64,000 nt of DNA from Paracoccus maritimus (GTDB lineage: Bacteria; Pseudomonadota; Alphaproteobacteria; Rhodobacterales; Rhodobacteraceae). This document shows positions 24,808-37,749 of this stretch, piece by piece. The position numbers and the translations under genes were made by a program. The notes under the pieces are model-generated. The model ran no database searches. It saw only the letters and a list, made by a program, of their open reading frames with translations, and was not told the DNA's origin. The number at the start of each line of letters is the position of its first letter. Position 1 is the first letter of the stretch. The stretch is taken from contig NZ_JANAVZ010000004.1 in NCBI RefSeq assembly GCF_025195095.1, positions 186,001 through 250,000 of the forward strand, given 5' to 3'.

Positions 24808-26508
24808 TCAGGCCGCCAGAGTCGCATAAATACCGCCCTGCGACAGAAGCTGGGCGTGGCTTCCAACCTCGGCGATGCGACCGTCTTGCATGACCACGAT
24901 CCGGTCGGCGTTGCGGATCGTGCCCAGTCGATGCGCGATGATCAGCGTCGTGCGCCCGACCGCCAGCGCATCCAGCGCCGTCTGGATTTCGCGTTCGGTC
25001 TGGCTGTCCAGCGCGCTGGTCGCCTCGTCCAGGATCAGGATCGGCGGGTTCTTCAGGAAGGCGCGCGCGATGGCGACGCGCTGTTTCTGACCGCCCGACA
25101 GCATCACGCCGCGTTCGCCGACAATCGTGTCCAGCCCTTCGGGCAGGGACGCGATCAGCGACGTCAGCTGCGCCTGTGCAGCGGCCTTGCATATCTCGTC
25201 TTCGCTGGCGCCGAGGCGGCCGTAGGCGATGTTCTCGCGCAGCGTGCCGCCGAACAGGAAGACATCCTGGCTGACCAGCCCGATCTGACGCCGCAGGCTG
25301 TTCAGCCGCATCCGATCCAGCGGCATCCCGTCCACGATGATGCGCCCCTCGGTCGGCTCGTAGAAGCGCGGCAACAAGGCCAGCAGGGTCGTCTTGCCGG
25401 CACCGGAATGGCCGACAAAGGCGACCGTCTCGCCGGCGCGAACGGTCAGGTCGATGCCCTGCAGGATCGGGCGGCCCTGATCATAGGCGAAACCCACCCG
25501 GTCAAAGTGGATATCGCCGCGCAGCACGGGTGCCTCGGTCGCTTCGGGCGCATCGGCGATTTCGGGATCGGTGGCCAGCAGTTCCTGATAGCGGCGGAAC
25601 CCGGCGATGCCACGCGGATAGGTTTCGATCACGGCGGCGATCTTTTCCAGCGGACGGTAGAATACACCCACCAGCAACAGAAAGCCGACAAAGCCCCCGG
25701 TGGACAGGCTGCCTGACAGCACGAAACCGGCGCCCACGACCATCACGACCACCTGCACCAGCCGCAGGCCCATATATTGCAAGGCCGACGACGCCGCCAT
25801 AACCCGATAGGCGTCCAGCTTGGCCTGCCGGTAACGCGCGTTGTCACCGGCAAAGAGATGGCTTTCATGGCTTTCATTGCCGAACGCCTGTACAACGCGC
25901 ACGCCGCCAAGCGCCTCTTCCAGGCGGACATTGAAATCGCCGACACGCGAATAGATCGCGCGCCATGTCCGCGTCATCCGCCCACCATAGATGATCACCA
26001 GCGCCAGCATCGCCGGCACGATCAGCGCGACGATCAGCGCCAGCTGCGGGTTGATCCAGAACATCAAAGCGAAGGCCCCGACAAAGGTCATGATCGCGAC
26101 CACGGCATCCTCGGGGCCGTGATGGGCGACCTCGCCGATCTCTTCCAGGTCACGGGTCACGCGGGCGACCAGCTTGCCGGTGCGGGCGCGGTCATACCAG
26201 CGCCATGACAGCCGGGTCAGGTGGTCGAAGGCGCGGGCCCGCATCTCGGTCTCGATGTTGATGCCCAGCTTGTGCCCCCAGTAGATCACCACCGTCAGCA
26301 GGCCCGCATTGATCGCATACAGCAGCAGCAACCCGACGGCAGCGGCGATGGTCAGCGACCAGTCGCCCTGCGGCAGCAGATGGTCGATGAAGCCGGTGAT
26401 CGCCAGCGGAAAGGCCAGTTCCAGCAGTCCCGACAGGACCGCGCACCCGAAATCCAGCCAGAACAGGCCCATGAACGGGCGGTAATAGGAAAAGAATTCG
26501 CGCAGCAT
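24808..26508 (-). CDS. Exporter-fold ABC transporter, membrane and ATPase domains fused
   Basis: A 566-residue half-transporter that would work as a homodimer. Six membrane helices occupy residues 1-310, with the usual coupling phrases RLSWRWYDRARTGKLVARVT. The ATPase domain has VGHSGAGKTTLL (Walker A), LVSQDVFLFGGTLRENIAYG (Q-loop), LSGGQKQRVAIAR (signature), ILILDEATSALD (Walker B) and the H-loop IIAHR. It begins eight bases after the fhuC stop, so it belongs to the siderophore operon. It could export a siderophore or, like the exporter-fold proteins YbtPQ and IrtAB, take part in siderophore import; the sequence does not decide. Confidence 0.85.
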   Translation of the reverse strand: MLREFFSYYRPFMGLFWLDFGCAVLSGLLELAFPLAITGFIDHLLPQGDWSLTIAAAVGLLLLYAINAGLLTVVIYWGHKLGINIETEMRARAFDHLTRLSWRWYDRARTGKLVARVTRDLEEIGEVAHHGPEDAVVAIMTFVGAFALMFWINPQLALIVALIVPAMLALVIIYGGRMTRTWRAIYSRVGDFNVRLEEALGGVRVVQAFGNESHESHLFAGDNARYRQAKLDAYRVMAASSALQYMGLRLVQVVVMVVGAGFVLSGSLSTGGFVGFLLLVGVFYRPLEKIAAVIETYPRGIAGFRRYQELLATDPEIADAPEATEAPVLRGDIHFDRVGFAYDQGRPILQGIDLTVRAGETVAFVGHSGAGKTTLLALLPRFYEPTEGRIIVDGMPLDRMRLNSLRRQIGLVSQDVFLFGGTLRENIAYGRLGASEDEICKAAAQAQLTSLIASLPEGLDTIVGERGVMLSGGQKQRVAIARAFLKNPPILILDEATSALDSQTEREIQTALDALAVGRTTLIIAHRLGTIRNADRIVVMQDGRIAEVGSHAQLLSQGGIYATLAA

Positions 26509-26516
26509 CGGGATCC

Positions 26517-27284
26517 TCAGGCAGGAATGGCAATGGGGGTGCCGTCATCACGGGTCAGCACCTGCATCGGCAGGCCGTATATGTCTTGCAGCGTGGCAGG
26601 ACGCATCAGGTCGGCGGGACTGCCCTGCATCGCCAGACGTCCGCCCTTCAGGGCAACGACATGGTCGCAGAACCGGGCTGCCATGTTCACCTCGTGCAGC
26701 ACGATCACCGCGCTGCGGTTTTCGGCATGGCACATGCGACGAACCAATGCCAGCACCTCGACCTGATGGGCGATGTCCAGCGCGCTGATCGGTTCATCCA
26801 GAAGCAGCGTCCCGGCCCCTTGCGCGACCATCATCGCAAGCCAGACCCGCTGCCGCTCGCCACCAGACAGGGTGTCCACCAGCCGGTCCGCAAAGGCCGC
26901 GACCCCGCATTCGGCCATGGCCTCGGCGACCGCCGCGTGATCCCGCGGCCCGAAGCGCCCCAGCGCACCATGCCAGGGATAGCGGCCAAGCGCGACCAGT
27001 TCGCGCACCAGCATCCCCTCGGCCGGTGGGGTGGTCTGGGGAAGAAACGCCAGGCGGCGGGCATAGTCGCGAGCATGCCAGTCGCCAAGCGCGCGACCTT
27101 CGAATGCGACACGGCCAGAGGCGGGGATCTGCCGTGCCAGCACCTTCAGCAGGGTCGACTTTCCCGATCCGTTATGGCCGATCAGCGCGATCACCCTGCC
27201 CGCGGGCAGGTCAAGCGCAATCCCGTCCAGAAGTCGGCGGCCCGGAACATCCACGACCAGATCTTCGATAGCGAACAGGCTCAT
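26517..27284 (-). CDS. fhuC: Iron-siderophore ABC transporter ATPase (FhuC-like)
   Basis: A 255-residue ATPase that powers uptake through FhuB. Motifs: ALIGHNGSGKSTLL (Walker A), FLPQTTPPAEGM (Q-loop), TLSGGERQRVWLAM (signature), TLLLDEPISALD (Walker B) and VLHEVNMAARFCD (H-loop). I start at the ATG at 27284: it overlaps the fhuB stop as ATGA and has GAGG about nine bases upstream. The longer in-frame ATG at 27317 lacks support. It is the fourth gene of the receptor-fhuD-fhuB-fhuC run. Confidence 0.9.
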   Translation of the reverse strand: MSLFAIEDLVVDVPGRRLLDGIALDLPAGRVIALIGHNGSGKSTLLKVLARQIPASGRVAFEGRALGDWHARDYARRLAFLPQTTPPAEGMLVRELVALGRYPWHGALGRFGPRDHAAVAEAMAECGVAAFADRLVDTLSGGERQRVWLAMMVAQGAGTLLLDEPISALDIAHQVEVLALVRRMCHAENRSAVIVLHEVNMAARFCDHVVALKGGRLAMQGSPADLMRPATLQDIYGLPMQVLTRDDGTPIAIPA

Positions 27285-29257
27285 CGCACGGACCTCATCA
27301 TCAGCCAGATCAGCCATGGCGCACCGATCAGCGACGCGAACAGGCCAAGCGGCAGTTCATAGGGAAACCCGGCCATCCGGGCACCGAAATCGGCCGCCAG
27401 CATCAGCGCGGCCCCGATCAGCGCCGTCCCGGTCACATGATCCCGGGGTCGGGCCAGACCCACACGCCGGGCAAGATGCGGGGCCATTAGCCCGACGAAG
27501 GATAGCGGGCCGACCAGAACGGTCGCCGCGCCGGTCGCCACCCCCGCCAGAAGGATCAGTATCAGTCGCGCCCGACGCAGCGGCAGTCCAAGCCCGCCCG
27601 CGACGTCCGCACCAAGCGGCAACACCCCAAGCCAGCGCCGCGCCGCCAGCGTGAACCCCAGCACCGTGGCGGCCAGCGCCGCCAGAGCCATCGCCGCCGG
27701 CATCGTCACCGCCGAGGACGACCCGCTGAGCCAGTTCAGGATCGCCCAGGATCGCGCATCGCCCACAGCCATCATCGCCGACAGCACCGCCGAAGCCAGC
27801 GCCGACACCGCGATCCCCGCCAGCAGGATCCGCTCGGCCGGCATGTCGCGGCGACTGACGAAGGACGCGACCAGCGCCAGCGCGACGGCGCCGCCCGCCA
27901 TCGTGCCAATCGCAAGCAGCGCTGCGCCCGGCGCGACAGCAAGAAAGATCACCGCCGCATAGCCAAGCGACGCGCCGCCCGACACGCCCAGCACCTCGGG
28001 CGAGGCCAGCGGGTTCGCGGTCAGTCGCTGCAGGATCGCGCCGGCCAGTGCCAGCGCCGCCCCGGCAGAGGCCGCGGCGATCAGCCGCGGCGCCCGCATC
28101 GGCAGGAAGGCGCGAAGACTGTCCCAGTCCAGCACCGCCCATCCCCCCGGCACCCGGCCGATCCAGATCAAAATCAGCGCGGCCAGAACCAGCCCGATGC
28201 CAAGCGTGACCAGCAACCGCACCGGTCGCACAAGGCGTGGCGCCGGTCCTTCGGCAGCCTCGGTTCCGGGCGGGGTCGAGCCGCGCAGACGTGGCAGAAG
28301 CCAGATCAGCAGCGGACCGCCGATCAGGCCGGTCAGGGCGCCGGTGGGAAACATCTCGCCGCCCTGCCCCGCGATGGCCAGCACCAGCCCGTCGCAGACC
28401 GACAGGATCAGCGCGCCGATCGGCGGCGACAACGCCAGAAATTGCTCGATCCCGCGCGCGCCCGCCGTCCGCGCCAAGGCAGGTGCGGCAAGCCCGACAA
28501 AGGCGATCAGCCCCAACTCGGCCGAGACACTGGCGGCGATCCAGGCGGCCAGCGCGACCGCGGTGACACGCACCACCGCCACGTTCAGGCCCAAACCTCC
28601 CGCGCCTTCGACGCCAAGCGACAGCACCCGCAGAGGCCGGGCCAGCAGCGCCGCGCCAATCCCGCCCGCCGCCAGGACCAGTGCCAAGGCCTGTACCCCC
28701 GACCAGTCCTGCTGGACCAGAGATCCGCCATTCCAGATCACCAGCGACAGAAGATACTGCCCCTGGGACAGCGTGACCGCGGTCGCGATGGCGCTGGCGG
28801 TCATACCGACCAGCATCCCGGCGATCACCATTGTGACCGGCGCGAAGCCCCGCCTTGCACCGATGGCAAGAACCAGCGCGGCCGCCAGTCCGGCACCGGT
28901 CATCGCGACCGGCCATCGTCCCCACGCCAGCAGACCCGGCGCAAGGATCGTGGCCAACACCAGCGCCAGCTGCGCCCCCGCCGAAATCCCCAGCGTCGTC
29001 GGATCGGCCACCGGATTGCGCAGCACGGCCTGAAGGATTGCCCCCGACAGACCCAGCGCAGCCCCTGCCAACAGCGCGATCACCCCGCGCGGCATCATGC
29101 CGAAAGCCATCAGGATCTGATCCAGGCTCATTACCTGAGGATCGAAGGGCGGCGCGGGCCATTGCGCCACCGGCAGCATCCGCGCGGCCAGCACCAGCCA
29201 CAACGCGACGCTTAAGACAACCGCAAGCGGCAACCACAGGCGCAGCACGGGCCTCAT
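27281..29257 (-). CDS. fhuB: Siderophore ABC permease, fused double-length FhuB
   Basis: 658 residues made of two FecCD-type permease halves, each about 320 residues with some ten hydrophobic helices. Both halves repeat the family pattern: LSGAILQAVLRNPVADPTTLGIS and LAGAILQRLTANPLASPEVLG, and the coupling loops with GLAAPALAR and GLMAPHLARR. Fused permeases are typical of FhuB for hydroxamate siderophores. The ATG at 29257 overlaps the fhuD stop as ATGA, which fixes the start; upstream frame sequence is not needed. Confidence 0.92.
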   Translation of the reverse strand: MRPVLRLWLPLAVVLSVALWLVLAARMLPVAQWPAPPFDPQVMSLDQILMAFGMMPRGVIALLAGAALGLSGAILQAVLRNPVADPTTLGISAGAQLALVLATILAPGLLAWGRWPVAMTGAGLAAALVLAIGARRGFAPVTMVIAGMLVGMTASAIATAVTLSQGQYLLSLVIWNGGSLVQQDWSGVQALALVLAAGGIGAALLARPLRVLSLGVEGAGGLGLNVAVVRVTAVALAAWIAASVSAELGLIAFVGLAAPALARTAGARGIEQFLALSPPIGALILSVCDGLVLAIAGQGGEMFPTGALTGLIGGPLLIWLLPRLRGSTPPGTEAAEGPAPRLVRPVRLLVTLGIGLVLAALILIWIGRVPGGWAVLDWDSLRAFLPMRAPRLIAAASAGAALALAGAILQRLTANPLASPEVLGVSGGASLGYAAVIFLAVAPGAALLAIGTMAGGAVALALVASFVSRRDMPAERILLAGIAVSALASAVLSAMMAVGDARSWAILNWLSGSSSAVTMPAAMALAALAATVLGFTLAARRWLGVLPLGADVAGGLGLPLRRARLILILLAGVATGAATVLVGPLSFVGLMAPHLARRVGLARPRDHVTGTALIGAALMLAADFGARMAGFPYELPLGLFASLIGAPWLIWLMMRSVR

Positions 29258-30159
29258 GACCAGCCGATCGGTCCGGACGCGAATGCCCCTGCCAGCAACC
29301 GGGCGAAACGCAGGGCGGCCGGGACGCCGCCAAAGGCATTCACATCGGGCAATTGATACAGCCGGCCCTCGACGACGGGGGGAAGCGCCTGCCACAGGAT
29401 GCTGCGCCTCAGGGCGCGGTGCGCCGCGACGGGGATATCGCCGACAACCACCAGCCGCGCCTCGGGCATCGTGGCAAGCCGCTCGATCGGAACCGGCGCC
29501 AGAAAGCTGAACCGGGTGCCCTCGGTCCAGGCATTGCGCAGGCCAAGGCGATTCAGAGTGCTGCCGAACAGGCTATCAAAGCCAAAGGCCCGCAGATGCC
29601 GGGCATCGCCGATATTGACCAAAGCGACAGGCCGATCCGAGAAGCCACGAAGACGCGCGGCCAGATCGTCCAGCTCGGCCTCGGCCCGTGCCGTCGCCCG
29701 CCCGCCGGCATCCGGGTCGCCGACCGCTGCCGACAGCGCATCAACCGCCGCGAATGCCTTGGGCAGCGGCGCTTCGCCGGGAACATAGAATGGCAGGTTC
29801 AGCACCGGCGCCAGCGATGCAAGCCGGTCCTGATAGCGCATGTAATAGGGCGAGGTCAGGATCAGGTCGGGGCGGGTCAGTTGCAGCAGTTCGAAATTCG
29901 GCGCACCACGCAGCCCCAGATCGACGACCTTCGCCGGGACCTTCGGCTGCATCGCATCCTCGCGATAGCGGATCAGTTCGCAGGCCGCGACGGGCATGTG
30001 GCCGATCAGGATCGCGGTCTCCAGCATCGCCCAGTCGATCGCCGCAAGGCGCGGCTGCGAGGGCAAGGCCCGCAGCGACGATGCCGCCGCCAGCCACAGG
30101 CCGGCGGCGGTCAGGATGGCACGGCGATCAGGCCCGGACTTTGCGGCCCGCCCGGTCAC
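29254..30159 (-). CDS. fhuD: Periplasmic siderophore-binding protein (FhuD-like)
   Basis: A 301-residue binding protein of the FecB/FhuD cluster. The N-terminus PDRRAILTAAGLWLAAASSL looks like a twin-arginine signal. The body shows the two-lobed pattern: VPAKVVDLGLRGAPNFELLQLTRPDLIL, then GDARHLRAFGFDSLFGSTL and LVVVGDIPVAAH. I choose the GTG at 30159, which overlaps the receptor stop as GTGA and matches the 4-base overlaps of the next two genes; the ATG at 30210 would overlap the receptor by 55 bases. Confidence 0.85.
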   Translation of the reverse strand: MTGRAAKSGPDRRAILTAAGLWLAAASSLRALPSQPRLAAIDWAMLETAILIGHMPVAACELIRYREDAMQPKVPAKVVDLGLRGAPNFELLQLTRPDLILTSPYYMRYQDRLASLAPVLNLPFYVPGEAPLPKAFAAVDALSAAVGDPDAGGRATARAEAELDDLAARLRGFSDRPVALVNIGDARHLRAFGFDSLFGSTLNRLGLRNAWTEGTRFSFLAPVPIERLATMPEARLVVVGDIPVAAHRALRRSILWQALPPVVEGRLYQLPDVNAFGGVPAALRFARLLAGAFASGPIGWS

Positions 30160-32240
30160 CACTTGTAAGTGACTTTTGCGCTGACGGTGCGCCCCTCGCC
30201 GTAGGAGCAATATGAAAATCCGCAGGCACTGACATAGACTTCATCGGTGACGTTGGTCAGGTTCAACGACATCTCGACATTGTCGCGGCTGTAGGCGGCG
30301 CCCAGATCCACCAAGGTCACGCTGTCCAGTTCGGCCGAGTTGGCCGCATCGATGAAGCGATCCCCGATGTAGCGAACACCGCCCCCGACACGCAGGCCAT
30401 TCGCAAATTCACGATCAAGCCAGATACTGGCGATATGGTTCGGGGCGTCGGCCAATTGGTTGCCATTCAGCGGATCGCCCTCAGGTGCGACCTGCTCGGT
30501 CTTGTTGTAGGCGTAGCCGGCGCGCAGCTTCCAGGCATCTGCGATTTCGGCGGTCGCCTCGATTTCAAGGCCACGCGACTTGACCTCACCGATCTGCCGG
30601 ATGCCGGCGATCCCACCTTCCAGCACAGACCTGTTCACATTCTTCTGGCGCAGATCATACAGCGACGCGGTGATCAGCCCGTCAAACGCCGTCGGCTGGT
30701 ATTTTACCCCAAGCTCCCACTGCTCGCCCTCGGTCGGACGCAAGGCGATTCCATCGATATCCTGCCCAGCCTGCGGATCGAAGGATGTCGAATAGCTGGC
30801 ATATGGCGTAAGACCATTGGCCATGACATATCCAAGGCCGATGCGACCGGTTACCTTGTTGTCCTTGTACTCGGACACGCTTCCGTAACGTTCGCCGGTC
30901 TGCTCCACCCAGTCATAGCGCAGGCCAAGGGAACCGCGCCAGTTCCCGTACTCGACCTCGTCCTGGGCATAGATACCGACCTGACGCAGCTTCGAGTCAC
31001 CCGCATTCGGATCGCCTGGGAACCTGCGCCCACCGGCATAATAGTCTGGATCGCGCCAGTTCAGATCGCTGGCGATGCCAAACTGGCTGCTTTCATAGGC
31101 GTCGTACTGTCGAACATCCACGCCAAACAACAGCTTGTGCACGGCTTGACCAGTCGTGGCCTCGCCCGACAGGCGGGTGTCGAGGCTGATCGTTTCGCTG
31201 TCTTCTTCTTGGCGGCTGGAGCCCCGGCTGAACGTGTCCGCCCCGGTGACCGCAATGGCGTAGGTACTGCGATAGTCCCAGTCCAACTTCTCATAGCGGA
31301 ACCCTTGACTAAGCCTCCAGCCATTGTCGAACTCGTGGCTCAGTTCAAGGCTGAAGCTGGACGATGTTCGGTCGCTGTCGTCCCAATCCTTCTGACCCGT
31401 GTACAGGTCGCGCAGGTAATCGCCATACGCGCTTTGCGTCAGTGCGAACGGGACTCCTGTCGGGGACAGGGGCGAATCCTTGGTGTAGTTCGCCATTATG
31501 TCGATGGTCGTCGCGGCATCGGGCGACCACCGGACCGCACCTGCCAGATAGCCGCGCTTGTTGGTCAGGTCATCGATCTGCGTGTTGTCGTCGCGGCCGA
31601 TCCCGGTAAGCCGCCAGGATAGCGTTTCGGAGGGCGCGCGATTGACATCGAAGAACAACTGCCTGCTTTGGTTGCTGTCATAGCCGACACCTGCTTCGCC
31701 GAAATCGTAGGATTGGGCACGCTTCTGCACCTGATTGATCACGCCAAGTGGCGAGCCTGCTCCGTAAAGCGAGGATGATGGCCCACGCAAGACCTCGATC
31801 TGCTGCATGCCATAGAGTTCCTGGCCAATCGCGCCGAAATATCGCCCCTGGCGCAGTCCGTTCACGTACTGTGCGTTGTCGGCCCGGAAGCCGCGGATAT
31901 AGGGCGTGTCGAACCGCGGATCTATTCCGAACGGCTGTGCGTGGACACCCGACGTATAGCCCAATGCCTGACCCAGATTCTCTGCACCCTGATCCTTGAC
32001 CTGATCCGTCGTGACAACGGACACGGATTGCTGCATCTCGGCTATCGGCGTGTCTGATTTGGTGGCCGCCTGCGAGTATTCACTTACATATCCCTCGGGC
32101 TGGACACTGACATCCGTCGTCGCGGTCAGCGTGATCGCGTCCAGAACAATGGGCTGCTGCGCCTCTTGTGCAAAGGCGGATGCCGACAAGGCGAGAACGC
32201 TTGCGCTGGCAAGCCATGTGATTCTGAATGCGGTTTTCAT
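30156..32240 (-). CDS. TonB-dependent siderophore receptor (FhuA-like)
   Basis: A 694-residue outer-membrane receptor. A signal peptide covers residues 1-24 (ending SASAFAQ). There is a plug domain with TDTPIAEMQQSVSVVTTDQVKDQG-type order, PYIRGFRADNAQYVNGLRQ and VEVLRGPSSSLYGAGSPLGVINQVQK (here QIEVLRGP). A 22-strand barrel follows, ending in the aromatic TVSAKVTYKW, the outer-membrane insertion signal. It has the siderophore-receptor profile of FhuA/FhuE proteins; the operon context suggests a hydroxamate siderophore. The likely promoter and an iron-type palindrome lie in the 523-base upstream gap. Confidence 0.92.
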   Translation of the reverse strand: MKTAFRITWLASASVLALSASAFAQEAQQPIVLDAITLTATTDVSVQPEGYVSEYSQAATKSDTPIAEMQQSVSVVTTDQVKDQGAENLGQALGYTSGVHAQPFGIDPRFDTPYIRGFRADNAQYVNGLRQGRYFGAIGQELYGMQQIEVLRGPSSSLYGAGSPLGVINQVQKRAQSYDFGEAGVGYDSNQSRQLFFDVNRAPSETLSWRLTGIGRDDNTQIDDLTNKRGYLAGAVRWSPDAATTIDIMANYTKDSPLSPTGVPFALTQSAYGDYLRDLYTGQKDWDDSDRTSSSFSLELSHEFDNGWRLSQGFRYEKLDWDYRSTYAIAVTGADTFSRGSSRQEEDSETISLDTRLSGEATTGQAVHKLLFGVDVRQYDAYESSQFGIASDLNWRDPDYYAGGRRFPGDPNAGDSKLRQVGIYAQDEVEYGNWRGSLGLRYDWVEQTGERYGSVSEYKDNKVTGRIGLGYVMANGLTPYASYSTSFDPQAGQDIDGIALRPTEGEQWELGVKYQPTAFDGLITASLYDLRQKNVNRSVLEGGIAGIRQIGEVKSRGLEIEATAEIADAWKLRAGYAYNKTEQVAPEGDPLNGNQLADAPNHIASIWLDREFANGLRVGGGVRYIGDRFIDAANSAELDSVTLVDLGAAYSRDNVEMSLNLTNVTDEVYVSACGFSYCSYGEGRTVSAKVTYKW

Positions 32241-32507: not shown

Positions 32508-32763
32508 AAGATAAAAAGCAACCCTTAGGAATATTGAAAAACTCCCCCAGAGCGTACCGCAAAGGCTTTTCCTCCAACCGTCCACGCTAACAAAAGGAAC
32601 GAATCAGGGGCCTTCGCGAAGTGTGATTGTACCATTCGGCGAATTCGATAAGCATTACCGAAGACCGATCCGGATCAATCGCAGTTTATTGTGATTCAAT
32701 TCGCTGAAAAGTTGACAAGAAGTCCTGAATCAGCATCCTTGATATTACTGCAAGGAGAAATCC

Positions 32764-34839
32764 GTGGCACGTTTTATCTGGTCAGTTTGTTCAGCAATCG
32801 TTTTGCTTGTGGTTGCCATTTCGGCGCCTGCTCCGGCGCGCGCGCAGCAAGACGAGACGCAGCGCGCGCATGCCCTGCGTCAGATCATCGCGACGATGGA
32901 TGCAGAGGTCGCACAGCTTGAAGCGCGTTCGGAACAAGCACAGACCAAGCTGGACGAACTGAACGCGGATATTCCCGAGGCCGAAACAAGATTGCAGGAC
33001 TTGCAGTCCGAGATTGACGATCTGACCGCGCGGCGCGGGGAACTGGACGCGCGCATCGGTCAGGCGGACGCGCAGGACGAACAGCAGCAGCAGCTGGACG
33101 CCGAAATCGCCAAGAAGCAGGCATCGGTTGAGGCGCTGGCCGAAACCCTGTCTGCCCGACAGGCCGACCTGGACGCCTTGCAGCGCCAGATCGACGACGC
33201 CGCAGCGAAGCGCCAGGAATTGCAGTCTGGCATGGCCGAGACCGAGGACATGAAGACGCAGCGCGACAATCTTGCAGCAGAGCTGAACCAGCTGCAGCAA
33301 GAAGCCGAGACGCTGCAACAGACGATCGCGACGCGGCGCGAGGAGGCCGAGGCGCTGAACGCCCAGGCGACCAGCGTTCGCGCCGAGATCGAAAAGCTTG
33401 GCGCTGAGCGCGAGAGCCTGCAGGCCGACATCGACACCGCACGCAACTCTGCCGAGGCTGAGAAAGCGACGCTCGGCGAACTGACCGCGCAGGCCGAGGC
33501 AATGCGGACGCAGATCGCAGAACTGACGACGGAACGTGACGAGGTGACGGCGGCGCAGCAGACGGCCCAAGCCGCATTGCAGGATTTGCAGCAGCAGGCG
33601 GACCAGCAGCGCGCCGAGATCGAAAGCCTGACCACGCGCCGGGACGAGCTGCAGGCCGAAATTTCCGAGGGTGGCGAGATCGCCGACCAAAGGCAGCTTG
33701 CTGCCAGTCTGGCGGAAACCATCGCCGCACGCCGTCAGGAATTGACCGTTATTGAGGCCGGAACCGCCAAGCTTGCGGACCTTGAACAGTCCATCGCCAC
33801 GCGGCAAGGCGAGATGGACGAACTGACAGGCCAGGCGCAGCGGCTGCGCGACGAGGTCGCGTCACTTAGCGAACGCCGCGACACGCTGAAATCGCAGACC
33901 GAACAGGGCGAGGACGCGGCACAGCAACTGGCCGACGCCGATGCGCTTGCCCAGACCATCGCGGAGCGCCGCGAGGAAATCGCCCGACTTGATGCACAAA
34001 GCACCGAGCTTCGCGACGGGATCGCAGAGATGACGACGCGACAACAGGATCTGGAAAGCAGCGTCGCGCAGCAGACCGAGTTGGCCGAGAAGCTGCAGGA
34101 TCAGCAAGCAAGTTCTGCGCGTCTGGATGAGGAACTGGCCAGCCGCAGCGCGGAACTGGATCAGATGACCCAGCGTGCGCGCGAGCTTGAAGAGCAAGTG
34201 GCCCAGATGTCCGAGGAACGTCAGTCATTGCAGTCCGAGACCGAAGCCGCCCAAAGTGCCAGCGCCCAGATTTCCGACAGCATCGAACAACTGAAGGCTG
34301 AACAAGCCGAGGGCGAAGACACACTCGCAGATCTTCGCGACGAGATCGAAACGATCACGGAACAACGGCGGGAATTGTCGCAAGAGGTCGAAAGCCTGGC
34401 GGAGTTGCAGGCCGAGCGTGAACGTGTCGCGCAGGCTGTCAGCGAACAGCAGTCCGCCCGGGACGCACTGGCATCAGAGGCCGAAACCTTGCGCGCCGAG
34501 ATCGCGACCTTGCGTGATCAACGCGAGGCCCTGACGGCCGCCCAGCCGGAAGCTGCGGCATCTGCCCCGGTCGCGGCGGCGCAGGCGGCAGAGCCGATAC
34601 CACCGGAAATCCAGCCCCAACCAGCGGCGGCCCCCGCTCTGTCCCGCCCCCGCGATGCAGCGGATGTTGATGCGGCGCTTGCGGCGGCGCCGGGGCTTCC
34701 GCGCGACGCGGCGCAGCTTTCCCGCCTGCGCATTCTGCTGATCGAAGGCGCATGCGCGCCCGACGCGCTGCGCCAAGTGCAGAACCCGATCAACCGGCAG
34801 ACGCTGCTGGCCCTGATGTCACGCCTGGAGCGTTGCTGA
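32764..34839 (+). CDS. Secreted or periplasmic long coiled-coil protein
   Basis: The start is a GTG with AAGGAG six bases upstream. 691 residues: a Sec signal peptide ends near residue 28 (APARAQQ). About 570 residues follow of nearly continuous coiled coil made of Glu, Gln, Ala, Arg and Leu, with phrases such as LTTRRDELQAEI recurring at irregular spacing. Then comes an Ala/Pro-rich hinge (about 605-640) and a compact C-terminal segment with two cysteines (EGACAPDALRQVQNP and MSRLERC). Such a rod could span the periplasm or scaffold a complex. The TAXI-type protein starts 33 bases later and shares the operon. Function unknown. Confidence 0.7.
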   Translation: MARFIWSVCSAIVLLVVAISAPAPARAQQDETQRAHALRQIIATMDAEVAQLEARSEQAQTKLDELNADIPEAETRLQDLQSEIDDLTARRGELDARIGQADAQDEQQQQLDAEIAKKQASVEALAETLSARQADLDALQRQIDDAAAKRQELQSGMAETEDMKTQRDNLAAELNQLQQEAETLQQTIATRREEAEALNAQATSVRAEIEKLGAERESLQADIDTARNSAEAEKATLGELTAQAEAMRTQIAELTTERDEVTAAQQTAQAALQDLQQQADQQRAEIESLTTRRDELQAEISEGGEIADQRQLAASLAETIAARRQELTVIEAGTAKLADLEQSIATRQGEMDELTGQAQRLRDEVASLSERRDTLKSQTEQGEDAAQQLADADALAQTIAERREEIARLDAQSTELRDGIAEMTTRQQDLESSVAQQTELAEKLQDQQASSARLDEELASRSAELDQMTQRARELEEQVAQMSEERQSLQSETEAAQSASAQISDSIEQLKAEQAEGEDTLADLRDEIETITEQRRELSQEVESLAELQAERERVAQAVSEQQSARDALASEAETLRAEIATLRDQREALTAAQPEAAASAPVAAAQAAEPIPPEIQPQPAAAPALSRPRDAADVDAALAAAPGLPRDAAQLSRLRILLIEGACAPDALRQVQNPINRQTLLALMSRLERC

Positions 34840-34872
34840 ATGGCCCCACGTCGTTTCCAAGGAGAGAGTATC

Positions 34873-35919
34873 ATGCGTTTGTCCAAGATCTTGCGGGGCG
34901 CCGCACTTGTCGCAGGCTTCATCGGGGCGGCAGCCCTGCCCGGCCTAGCGCAGGAGCCGCGTATCAACATTATGACCGGCTCGGCGACGGGCACCTATAT
35001 TCAGTTCGGTCGAGATATGCAGAACCTGATGGCAGGTTGCGGCCAGCAGATGGGCGTGGTCGAATCGGCCGGCTCCCTGGAGAATTTCCTTGCGGTGCGT
35101 CAGCGGCGGCACACCCAGTTCGGCATCGTCCAGAATGACGTGCTGGAATACATGCAGACCTTTGCAAGCCAGGATCCTGTCGTTGCACGGGCCATTCAAG
35201 GCGTTCGCATCGCCTTTCCCCTGTATGAGGAAGAGGTCCATATCCTTGCCAAGAAGGACATCAACAGCCTTGCGGATCTGGCCGGAAAGCGGGTCGGCGT
35301 CGGCGACGAGGACAGCGGGACATTCCTGACATCGTCCCTGATGCTGTCGCTCAGCGGGATAGAGCCTGCGGAACGTCTGCCGCTGGGACCGCAGGAAGGG
35401 CTGGATGCGCTGAATGCGGACCGCGTCGATGCCTTCATCTATGTCGCGGGGGCGCCCGCCTCGCTGTATTCCGAAGGCAACATCGACGGCGACCGCTTTC
35501 ACCTTGTCCCGATCTCGGATGATACGCTGACCAGCGTCTATACGCCCTCGACCCTTCCCGCCAACACCTATCCGTTTCAGACCGAGCCCGTCGATCTGGT
35601 CGCGGTGAAGGCGGTTCTGATGACCTACGAATACAACATGCGCGGCAACAGCTATCACCGCGATGCCTGCACCGCTGTCTCGGACCTGTCTTCCCTGATC
35701 CTGACGCAACTGGAACAGTTGAAGGCAAATGGCCATCCGAAATGGCGCGATGTCGATCTTGAAGCGATCCCGCCGGGTTGGAGCATTGGCGCCTGCGTCA
35801 ATCGGGGCATCAGCCCCGATTACGTCGCAAACTGCACTGCACCATCGACGATGAGCGATCCCGAAAGCGACGCGAACGCCGCCTATCGCCGCAGCATCTG
35901 TGCCGTCATGGGCTGCTGA
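34873..35919 (+). CDS. TAXI-family (TRAP-type) solute-binding protein, orphan
   Basis: The ATG at 34873 follows AAGGAG. 348 residues: signal peptide 1-26 (ending LPGLAQ), then a TAXI-type binding domain with the opening INIMTGSATGTYIQFGRDMQ, SLENFLAVRQRRHTQFGIVQ, the phrase LAGKRVGVGDEDSGTFLTS and an N-terminal-lobe PLYEEEVHILAK. The C-terminal 40 residues hold three cysteines (one in VANCTAPST, one in RSICAVMGC and the last residue), an extension beyond the usual fold. No TRAP permease gene is near. It stands between the coiled-coil gene and a convergent AAA ATPase gene, which abuts it stop to stop. Confidence 0.78.
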   Translation: MRLSKILRGAALVAGFIGAAALPGLAQEPRINIMTGSATGTYIQFGRDMQNLMAGCGQQMGVVESAGSLENFLAVRQRRHTQFGIVQNDVLEYMQTFASQDPVVARAIQGVRIAFPLYEEEVHILAKKDINSLADLAGKRVGVGDEDSGTFLTSSLMLSLSGIEPAERLPLGPQEGLDALNADRVDAFIYVAGAPASLYSEGNIDGDRFHLVPISDDTLTSVYTPSTLPANTYPFQTEPVDLVAVKAVLMTYEYNMRGNSYHRDACTAVSDLSSLILTQLEQLKANGHPKWRDVDLEAIPPGWSIGACVNRGISPDYVANCTAPSTMSDPESDANAAYRRSICAVMGC

Positions 35920-37749
35920 TCATCGTCCGGGCGCGGGGGCCGCGAACCAGTCGGTCGCGGCCACGTCCTCTCCGTCGACGCCGATGGTGACAAAGCGCCA
36001 GCGCGCCGGCACATTTTCCAGCAGAATGGCGGAACGATCGGTGACGATGCGTTGAGTCGGCGCATCACCTTGATCAACGTCTTCATTGGATTCGGTTTCG
36101 ATCGCAAAGGTCGCGGGGCTTTCGCCCTGGGCCGCCCGCCAGTGCAGCTCCAGCTGTCCCGAGGGAAGGACCGCCTGCAAGACCGGGATGGGCGCCGAAG
36201 CAGCAGCCTGCACCACGGGTTGGTCCGACAGACCTTCCAGACGGTCTGTCGCACCCCAGATACCCTCTGCCGTGTCATACCAGCTTCGCGCCCGGTTCGG
36301 ATCGGCATTCACGCCTTCGCCAATCTCGAAAGCCTGCCCCAGATAATAGGCAGCGCGCGCATTGCCGTGGATCGCCGCACGCTCATACAGCAGCGCCGCA
36401 TCTTCCGGTTGATCCTGCCCGATGGAAAGGGCTTCTGCCATCAACGCTGCCGGGTCAGGCATGGACGCCATCCGTTCGACCTGTGCAGGCGGCGGAAGTT
36501 CCGGGCTCTCGGCGAACTGGGTAAATGCACTGGGCGGCAGGTCGTCCGGTTCCGGCCGCAACTGCGCGGGCTGTGTGTCGATGTCGGAAATGGTCGTCAG
36601 GTCCGGATTGCGTTCACGGATCTGCCACCAATACAGCGCCCCGGCAGCGCCGGCGATCGCCAGCACGAAGGCCGCGCGCGAAAGGCCCGGCCAAGGTGAT
36701 GCCGTTTTTTTCGTCCGGACCGGCTGCGAGGTCAGGACCGGCAGGCTGCGCGCCGCGGTCACCGGCTGGTCCGCACCGGTCGCCGGCGGCATCTCGTGAC
36801 GCGGCACAGCCGATGTTGGGGGGGCGGTGGTCGGTGACGCGGCCGCACGTACAGGCAGCTCCACGACGGGCTGTCCCGGTTCCACCGAAGGCAGGTCCTG
36901 CCTGTCCGCCACGCCCGCGCCGGGCCGCGCTTTCAGGCCACGCTCTCGCAGGCAGGTATCGACAAAATCCGCGTCCAGCCTGTCGCGACTGGCGGCCTGC
37001 GCCTGACGCAGGCAATATCGGGCCAATTCGTTCATCTCCTCGGGAACGCCGCCGGCCCAGTGATGTAGCACCCTGACACTGCCGTGTTCAAATGGTGATA
37101 CACCTGCGTGGCATTCGCAGCCCGCGACGGCAAACCGGTGGTCGATATAGGCCCGCGCCTCGTCCACGCCCAAGGGCGGAAGGTCGAAATATCCCGAGAT
37201 CAGCCGATACAATCCACGGTGCTGCGGATCTGTCAGCCGGGCACGAAGATGCGGCGCGCCCGCCATCAGCAACGGCATCGTCTCCGCGCCACGCCCGCCC
37301 GGATCGCTTAGCCCGCGCAGATCCTCAAGGGCGCTGGGGCCGCACAGATGCGCGTCATCCACGAACAGGATCGCGGGTCGACCCTGACGGTTCTGATCGC
37401 CAAGAAATTCCTGCATGCGCAGCAGGACATCCCCCGCGCCGGCCCCGGAAAGTTTCAGGCCGAACGCCGCAGGAACACTGGCAAGCGGATCACGCAAGGC
37501 ACCCTTGGTTGCATCAATCCAGCCCACGGTGAATTCGTTGCGCAGTTCCGCGGCGACGACCCGCATCGACAGAGTCTTGCCGGTGCCGGTCTCGCCCGTC
37601 AGCAGGGTCAGTCGATGGCCGGATTCGGCACCGTGAAACAGGACCCTGACGGCCTGACTGTGCCCGGCCGACGGAAAGAACCATGCCGGGTCGTGCACCG
37701 CGCGAAACGCGGGACAGGGCTTGCCCGAGGCTGGTCTGTTTTCGATCAT
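35920..37749 (-). CDS. Membrane-anchored AAA ATPase (ExeA-like) with a Sel1-like repeat
   Basis: 609 residues. Residues 1-270 form an ExeA/GspA-type AAA domain with LLTGETGTGKTLSMRV (Walker A) and AILFVDDAHLCG (Walker B), plus the lid PLLMAGAPHLRARL. A Pro/Ala-rich linker leads to one transmembrane helix near residues 360-380 (FVLAIAGAAGALYWW). The periplasmic part has a Sel1-like pair of helices (ALLYERAAIHGNARAAYYLG, then GVNADPNRARSWYDTA) and a small beta domain. ExeA proteins help assemble large envelope complexes through peptidoglycan. It is convergent with the TAXI gene, sharing adjacent stop codons. Confidence 0.75.
   Translation of the reverse strand: MIENRPASGKPCPAFRAVHDPAWFFPSAGHSQAVRVLFHGAESGHRLTLLTGETGTGKTLSMRVVAAELRNEFTVGWIDATKGALRDPLASVPAAFGLKLSGAGAGDVLLRMQEFLGDQNRQGRPAILFVDDAHLCGPSALEDLRGLSDPGGRGAETMPLLMAGAPHLRARLTDPQHRGLYRLISGYFDLPPLGVDEARAYIDHRFAVAGCECHAGVSPFEHGSVRVLHHWAGGVPEEMNELARYCLRQAQAASRDRLDADFVDTCLRERGLKARPGAGVADRQDLPSVEPGQPVVELPVRAAASPTTAPPTSAVPRHEMPPATGADQPVTAARSLPVLTSQPVRTKKTASPWPGLSRAAFVLAIAGAAGALYWWQIRERNPDLTTISDIDTQPAQLRPEPDDLPPSAFTQFAESPELPPPAQVERMASMPDPAALMAEALSIGQDQPEDAALLYERAAIHGNARAAYYLGQAFEIGEGVNADPNRARSWYDTAEGIWGATDRLEGLSDQPVVQAAASAPIPVLQAVLPSGQLELHWRAAQGESPATFAIETESNEDVDQGDAPTQRIVTDRSAILLENVPARWRFVTIGVDGEDVAATDWFAAPAPGR

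Follow-up and report, generated by a model that had tools for sequence, protein, structure and literature searches.

A conserved coiled-coil, TAXI and AAA ATPase gene set of Paracoccus maritimus that may sense a ligand without a TRAP transporter

In a 64,000-nucleotide stretch of the Paracoccus maritimus genome (contig NZ_JANAVZ010000004.1, positions 186,001 to 250,000; hereafter the window), the genes for a secreted coiled-coil protein (CC), a TAXI-type periplasmic binding protein (TAXI) and a membrane AAA ATPase (AAA) lie side by side, and comparison of related genomes indicates that they form a real conserved unit in which the AAA gene is optional. The pairing of TAXI with a coiled-coil envelope protein, and often with a membrane ATPase, suggests reporting of a small molecule, probably a glutamate-like one, rather than import. 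At a probability of about 0.5, we favour a reading in which the cassette is not an importer: a TAXI protein that left TRAP transport would serve as the ligand sensor of an autonomous envelope module and be coupled to a rod in the envelope and to a membrane ATPase. The original prediction had described a GTG-started CC of 691 residues, a TAXI gene 33 bases on and a convergent AAA gene with abutting stop codons, and open reading frames were found at just these coordinates (Table 1). The longest TAXI reading frame starts at 34840, and the likely start, 34873, lies 33 bases past the CC stop; the TAXI and AAA stop codons abut exactly (35919/35920).

The earlier statement that no TRAP permease genes are present was borne out, as no DctM gene lies in the window and the only one found on the contig lies ~173 kb before the window start. 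A DctM gene within 1.5 kb of TAXI was found at 0 of 36 distinct related loci (7 from the family, 16 from Paracoccus and 13 more distant) vs 33 of 43 TRAP-type TAXI controls (Fisher p 6e-14, calculated with 37 entries, of which L021 and L068 are one locus). In a tree of 64 TAXIs, one branch with a support of 100 parts 39 TRAP-free proteins, the window's included, from 25 TRAP-linked ones, and the 14 TAXIs with a CC-tail partner form one group with a support of 97; these trees were quick ones with some long branches. The first tree held only those TRAP-type loci with a DctM match, the locus L022/L069 is in neither tree, and among 18 added TAXI rows L085 alone, which is the L114 locus again, fell on the TRAP-free side. 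Beyond the immediate neighbourhood, DctM genes were found ~5-6 kb from TAXI in L047 and L068, a DctQM gene 3 kb away in L218, with an apparent truncated DctP directly before by reading-frame inspection, and, in L184, a TRAP set of the DctP type that includes a binding protein, on the far side of the AAA gene.

That the window TAXI is an ordinary orphan TRAP binding protein serving one of the genome's TRAP permeases in trans appears very improbable. TRAP genes are abundant in this genome, and one of its 20 DctM genes (L173:5655-7019, on contig C40) is unfused, with no DctQ or binding protein recognised nearby; however, the remaining 19 each have a binding protein nearby, the window TAXI falls outside the TRAP-linked tree group, and a 2018 review reports that TAXI-TRAPs are always found with fused DctQM (PMC5812351). 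The other three TAXIs of the genome each adjoin a DctM gene. A TRAP permease elsewhere that pairs with this TAXI had been named as the finding that would speak against the module, and on this point the genome mostly speaks against such a permease: 19 DctM genes are already paired, and a slight chance of pairing in trans is left for the unfused twentieth, near which no partner was seen. This unfused gene is followed by an apparent IclR-type regulator gene and a FadB-like gene.

Conservation of the neighbourhood in other genomes had been set beforehand as a test, and the CC-TAXI pair was found to be kept. Among 18 loci, TAXI at 62-98% identity was identified at 16, all from Paracoccus (the other two are remote, 26-33%), with the CC gene just upstream in all 16 and a convergent AAA gene in 15. 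Among 121 Paracoccus genomes, a sample that overlaps these 16 loci and is not independent of them, TAXI is present in 34; the CC tail is encoded immediately upstream in 33 of these, the 34th (G576) having a partial TAXI match, and a convergent AAA gene lies beside the pair in 28. Across the family, the CC tail domain occurs in 8 of 149 genomes, exactly those 8 with a TAXI match above 230 bits (Fisher p 2e-13), and across the class in 2 of 385 genomes, the P. maritimus genome included. Among the plasmid matches, of which 10 of 14 were examined (H7, H8, H12 and H14 were left out), the domain was also found in Shinella, on a 4.6-Mb replicon classed as a plasmid, where a TAXI of 56% identity lies next to it. 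In the 23 other loci compared, orthologs of the 13 genes that flank the trio in the window were seen next to it only in the near-identical sibling L043; matches elsewhere are distant ABC-protein similarity (31-37%). No gene family except TAXI and AAA recurs in at least 5 of the 24 loci compared, a clustering for which the CC proteins are too diverged. Since the flanking genes are not conserved, the three genes have stayed together in changing surroundings.

The AAA gene is linked to the pair more loosely. Its C-terminal profile scores above 150 bits in 4 of the 149 family genomes, all of them TAXI-positive, and at E up to 0.001 matches nothing in four of the eight TAXI-positive family genomes (G051, G066, G107 and G146). 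G146, however, encodes an AAA-CC fusion of 1279 residues in the gene preceding TAXI (L067), in which an AAA domain is followed by one predicted transmembrane helix (residues 454-472), then by a long coiled coil and finally by the Cys tail. This fusion indicates that AAA and CC are functionally linked and places the rod and tail across the membrane from the ATPase; from its sequence, the P-loop of the fusion looks degenerate, unlike those of 18 separate AAA proteins. The proposal that the three genes are one module thus stands insofar as CC and TAXI travel together and AAA is usual and once fused, and has to be relaxed in that AAA is not obligatory.

The CC protein begins with a hydrophobic segment, read by eye as a signal peptide of about residues 1-27, followed by a coiled coil at ~30-590 (coiled-coil Pfam and NCBIfam matches), a Pro/Ala linker and a C-terminal Cys domain. 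In an alignment of 24 sequences the coiled coil is strongly diverged, and the 68 C-terminal residues, among them two invariant cysteines, are conserved; this tail (profile A1) serves as the marker of the module. A defence function was considered and set aside, as the PADLOC matches of CC reflect generic coiled-coil similarity (JetC/LmuB) and neither TAXI nor AAA has a PADLOC match at E up to 0.01.

TAXI exceeds the cut-offs of both models of its family, with scores of 125.9 bits against TIGR02122 (cut-off 84.35) and 90.7 bits against PF16868 (cut-off 27). Its AlphaFold2 model (mean predicted local distance difference test score, pLDDT, 83) has a venus-flytrap fold, and the seven best Foldseek matches of the model are TAXI-type structures (E 8.7e-21 to 8s4j). 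The three C-terminal cysteines described earlier need correction: the protein has six conserved cysteines (56, 266, 308, 321, 343 and 348), four of them within the last 41 residues. The TAXI profile aligns with glutamate-bound TAXI structures, and the window equivalents of the VcGluP glutamate site are Y42, S68, Q87, E120, G149 and Y190, the pairing with VcGluP residues Y45, S75, Q93 and E125 having been read by eye from the alignment. Within 20 sequences (A2), Y42 is kept in 19, S68 in 18, and Q87, E120 and G149 in all 20; Y190 likewise falls in the range of 18-20. In VcGluP, mutating Y45 and Q93 is reported to matter most for glutamate binding, with 213- and 990-fold losses (PMC11574862). 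The pocket residues point to a ligand that is likely glutamate-like. In the wider TRAP-free set the pocket Y is kept in 21/25 and the Q in 18/25, and in TRAP-type rows in 24/25 and 20/25, respectively; as the TRAP-type proteins also keep it, the pocket does not distinguish the two groups. A phage origin was set aside: phrog_6856, of unknown function, matches TAXI, but the four phage records matched are unannotated, only 7-26 kb in length and 26-31% identical. These phage-labelled records with TAXI-like genes (MT837193, MT836293, MT835598 and MT835914) come from human faeces, and bacterial contamination is possible.

A conserved pocket also suits a transporter of a kind not yet described, in which TAXI would pass the ligand on to a permease that is not of the TRAP type and has its gene elsewhere in the genome, with CC and AAA positioning or energising that permease. 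Such pairing has a precedent in the TAXI-GltS system of Bordetella pertussis, presented in 2025 as a new, non-TRAP class with proposed delivery to GltS (PMC12344293), and the P. maritimus genome holds one gltS gene, on another contig, besides its one orphan DctM. We nevertheless consider this transporter improbable, because GltS is present in just 4 of 41 TAXI-positive genomes, which rules it out as the general partner of the module TAXI, because no permease family is found in at least 5 of the 24 loci compared, and because the recurring neighbours are single-pass or secreted proteins.

The AAA protein carries an ExeA-type ATPase domain, and Walker A and B motifs are recognisable in 18 of 18 aligned AAA proteins. 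The predicted transmembrane segment is weakly hydrophobic (mean 1.46; the equivalents in 17 other AAA proteins range from 1.46 to 2.66). The Sel1-like unit that had been proposed for this protein scores 24.5 bits against PF08238, under the Pfam cut-off of 30.7, and gains support from structural comparison: its alpha-alpha fold matches 8sxq with Z 9.9 (root-mean-square deviation 2.9 over 95 residues) and 6orc with Z 9.3 (1.1 over 76 residues, 33% identity). Because Z values under ~13 are not decisive for helical repeats, the identity and the Pfam match were also weighed. In the model of the C-terminal 185 residues (AlphaFold2, pLDDT 92), the helical repeat is followed by a seven-strand sandwich, which resembles fibronectin-III domains at Z ~7, a value at which the comparison tool urges caution; this predicted fibronectin-III-like domain after Sel1 is new relative to the original prediction. 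Against TIGR03015, the XrtA/PEP-CTERM-associated ATPase family, the protein scores 124.3 bits over residues 15-268, far under the cut-off of 324.5. As separate observations on AAA relatives, a 795-residue AAA protein of Paracoccus gahaiensis (L057:5865-8252) has its AAA-profile match in two profile-overlapping pieces, suggesting an internal duplication, and two proteins (L167:8832-10406 and L168:8693-9859) combine Sel1 repeats with a C-terminal part like that of the window AAA and have no ATPase domain; the L167 protein overlaps or trails a reading frame that is OmpA-like by eye.

In a different explanation the ExeA-like ATPase, its periplasmic arm and the rod would build or anchor an envelope, secretion or polysaccharide complex of which TAXI is a structural or regulatory subunit. 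ExeA, a one-helix AAA ATPase, is needed with a partner to assemble a secretin (PMC4098917), and the AAA protein of L216 carries a SPOR domain. In the genome G048, an AAA-Sel1 paralogue (L166:4939-10349) directly adjoins HlyD and ABC-exporter genes, with a glycosyltransferase gene nearby, and a secreted Sel1 paralogue (L165:8720-9946) lies within an apparent polysaccharide locus; the HlyD and ABC-exporter neighbourhood keeps the assembly explanation alive. Set against it are the lack of any further gene family beside the trio in at least 5 of the 24 loci compared, a Pfam scan at E up to 1 in which no peptidoglycan-binding domain was found on the window AAA, and the strict conservation of the pocket, which suggests that ligand binding matters. 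On balance we hold an assembly role to be unlikely.

The sensor reading gains breadth from the wider TRAP-free TAXI group, most members of which, judged from their sequences, adjoin single-pass, coiled-coil or AAA proteins. A protein ending in a Sel1-type domain (profile A4) is encoded within 4 kb of 17 of 25 more distant TRAP-free TAXIs, 11 of these 17 proteins having gone into building A4. The remainder of the A4 protein varies: it is an AAA domain plus a transmembrane helix in L108 and L109, as also in the TAXI-less L217, and by sequence reading a coiled coil in L111, L112, L216 and L218 and Ig-like segments in L105, L180, L185 and L060. In an out-of-sample A4 search of 385 genomes, a TAXI gene was found within 1.5 kb of 6 of 7 strong loci (>70 bits and not used to build A4) vs 0 of 17 weaker Sel1 loci (<60 bits; p 5e-5). 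This count left out six strong A4-building loci, two of which, L186 and L214, have no TAXI within 1.5 kb, although the corresponding longer stretches, L105 and L108, contain one a little further off; an eighth new strong match outside the count (G439 C347) has TAXI beside it (L221). In L216, from another family, a CC-Sel1 protein, TAXI and an AAA with a SPOR domain are encoded in a row on one strand, which is the same predicted set of parts, except that Sel1 belongs to another subunit. Three beta-proteobacterial TAXIs form a group in the tree; for two of these, the partner is a single-helix protein with a zinc-ribbon-like start, recognised in L178 by a sub-threshold Pfam match and in L181 by eye. 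On these two plasmids (L178 and L181) TAXI is preceded by a partner that ends in a short CxDALxxLxLC motif, also seen by eye. At L068:9893-12933 (G120, same family), a distant TRAP-free TAXI is followed by genes for a Ser/Thr protein kinase and a PP2C phosphatase, possibly a direct sensor-kinase pairing. An AAA-like match beside L194/L114 looks from its sequence like a RecD-type helicase and was dropped.

In the mechanism that we propose for the sensor, TAXI would bind a glutamate-like ligand in the periplasm and close as other TAXIs do; with or without ligand, it may dock on its partner's C-terminal domain (in CC the Cys domain, in other loci a Sel1 domain), so that the candidate docking site is the Cys tail and/or the Sel1 and fibronectin-III-like arm. 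The rod and this arm of AAA could relay the state of TAXI to the cytoplasmic ATPase, which would then change an envelope complex. Both the reporting of ligand by TAXI to CC and AAA and the action of the ATPase on the envelope are what we infer from gene linkage, the fusion, topology signals, recognisable ATPase motifs and the conserved pocket. The earlier suggestion that the binding protein acts as a sensor and not in transport is compatible with these observations.

Several observations weigh against this sensor. Pfam and NCBIfam scans found no classical signalling domain in the window module, and a transport protein would be just as likely to keep its pocket conserved. AAA was not found beside the pair in 6 of the 34 Paracoccus genomes (five checked within 1.5 kb only, and one with a partial TAXI), and its profile is unmatched in G051, G066 and G107, so AAA cannot be the sole output. 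The A1 profile was built from TAXI-adjacent sequences, which could inflate the co-occurrence where CC proteins are diverged. Furthermore, an A4 partner within 4 kb is missing for 8 of the 25 more distant TRAP-free TAXIs, and the 18 kb of L217, which encode an AAA-helix-Sel1 protein, contain no TAXI gene.

The components are of known kinds. Like the TAXI-type TRAP binding proteins VcGluP and TtGluBP, the window TAXI shares their sequence family, venus-flytrap fold and glutamate-pocket residues; unlike them, it has no adjacent DctQM, falls in a separate tree group, and carries an extra C-terminal segment with conserved cysteines and a constant CC partner. It resembles the TAXI-GltS of B. pertussis in having left TRAP for another partner, whereas that partner is a symporter and the one here is a secreted rod with a single-pass ATPase and no linked gltS. 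The window AAA shares with ExeA/GspA of type II secretion an AAA_22-type ATPase with Walker motifs, one transmembrane helix and a periplasmic arm; its arm, however, is Sel1 plus fibronectin-III-like, and no secretin or ExeB gene was noted beside it. To the XrtA/PEP-CTERM ATPase it bears only the partial similarity given above. Substrate-binding proteins that trigger transmembrane receptors, Ser/Thr kinases among them, are known (PMC9602780), and the proposed logic is like theirs and that of BctC-BctE, in that signalling would start when the binding protein, loaded with ligand, makes contact with a membrane protein; the receiver here would be a coiled-coil, AAA or Sel1 protein and not a kinase, chemoreceptor or cyclase, and the link is one of genes only. 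In open-access titles and abstract starts, with subscription papers and preprints outside the search, no description of the CC-TAXI-AAA trio or the TRAP-free group was found, and none of the open-access papers searched joins 'TAXI', 'TRAP transporter' and 'Sel1'; the combination of the components is likewise not found there.

Table 1. Coordinates of the genes and features of the CC-TAXI-AAA set, in window positions.
Feature	Position	Strand	Basis or remark
CC gene	32764..34839	+	GTG start, 691 aa; sequence, open reading frame
CC Shine-Dalgarno-like AAGGAG	32752..32757	+	6 bases 5' of GTG start; sequence
CC C-terminal domain (profile A1), module marker	34633..34836	+	two invariant cysteines; 24-sequence alignment
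TAXI gene, TRAP-free periplasmic binding protein	34873..35919	+	348 aa from likely start
TAXI Shine-Dalgarno-like AAGGAG	34859..34864	+	precedes likely start 34873; sequence
AAA gene, membrane AAA ATPase	35920..37749	-	609 aa, convergent with TAXI
AAA_22 (ExeA-type) ATPase domain, residues 43-172	37234..37623	-	55.3 bits
Predicted single transmembrane helix, residues 355-373	36631..36687	-	hydropathy
Sel1 repeat region, periplasmic part of AAA	36226..36453	-	AlphaFold2 pLDDT 92; Sel1 structures Z up to 9.9
Fibronectin-III-like beta sandwich, AAA C-terminal domain	35923..36204	-	model and structure comparison

Upstream of the module and divergent from it, window positions 24808-32240 hold an apparent siderophore uptake cluster, its genes named by eye as a TonB receptor, a binding protein, a long, double-length permease reading frame, an ATPase and an ABC exporter.

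TAXI proteins have so far been read as transporter parts, and here a whole TRAP-free group with recurrent gene partners is described. Tentatively, and with more doubt than confidence, TRAP-free TAXIs may be a class of periplasmic receptors that is widespread in proteobacteria. Each would bind a glutamate-like metabolite and dock on a swappable C-terminal module, either the Cys domain or a TYDPL-type Sel1 domain, carried by a partner that is a coiled-coil or single-pass protein, with the extracytoplasmic ligand driving a cytoplasmic ATPase. If this were true, it would amount to transenvelope sensing outside the two-component, chemoreceptor, cyclase and kinase systems. For annotators, the TAXI name alone does not imply transport, and proteins annotated as 'TRAP transporter subunit' become candidates that can be tested for a role in sensing metabolites or in remodelling the envelope.

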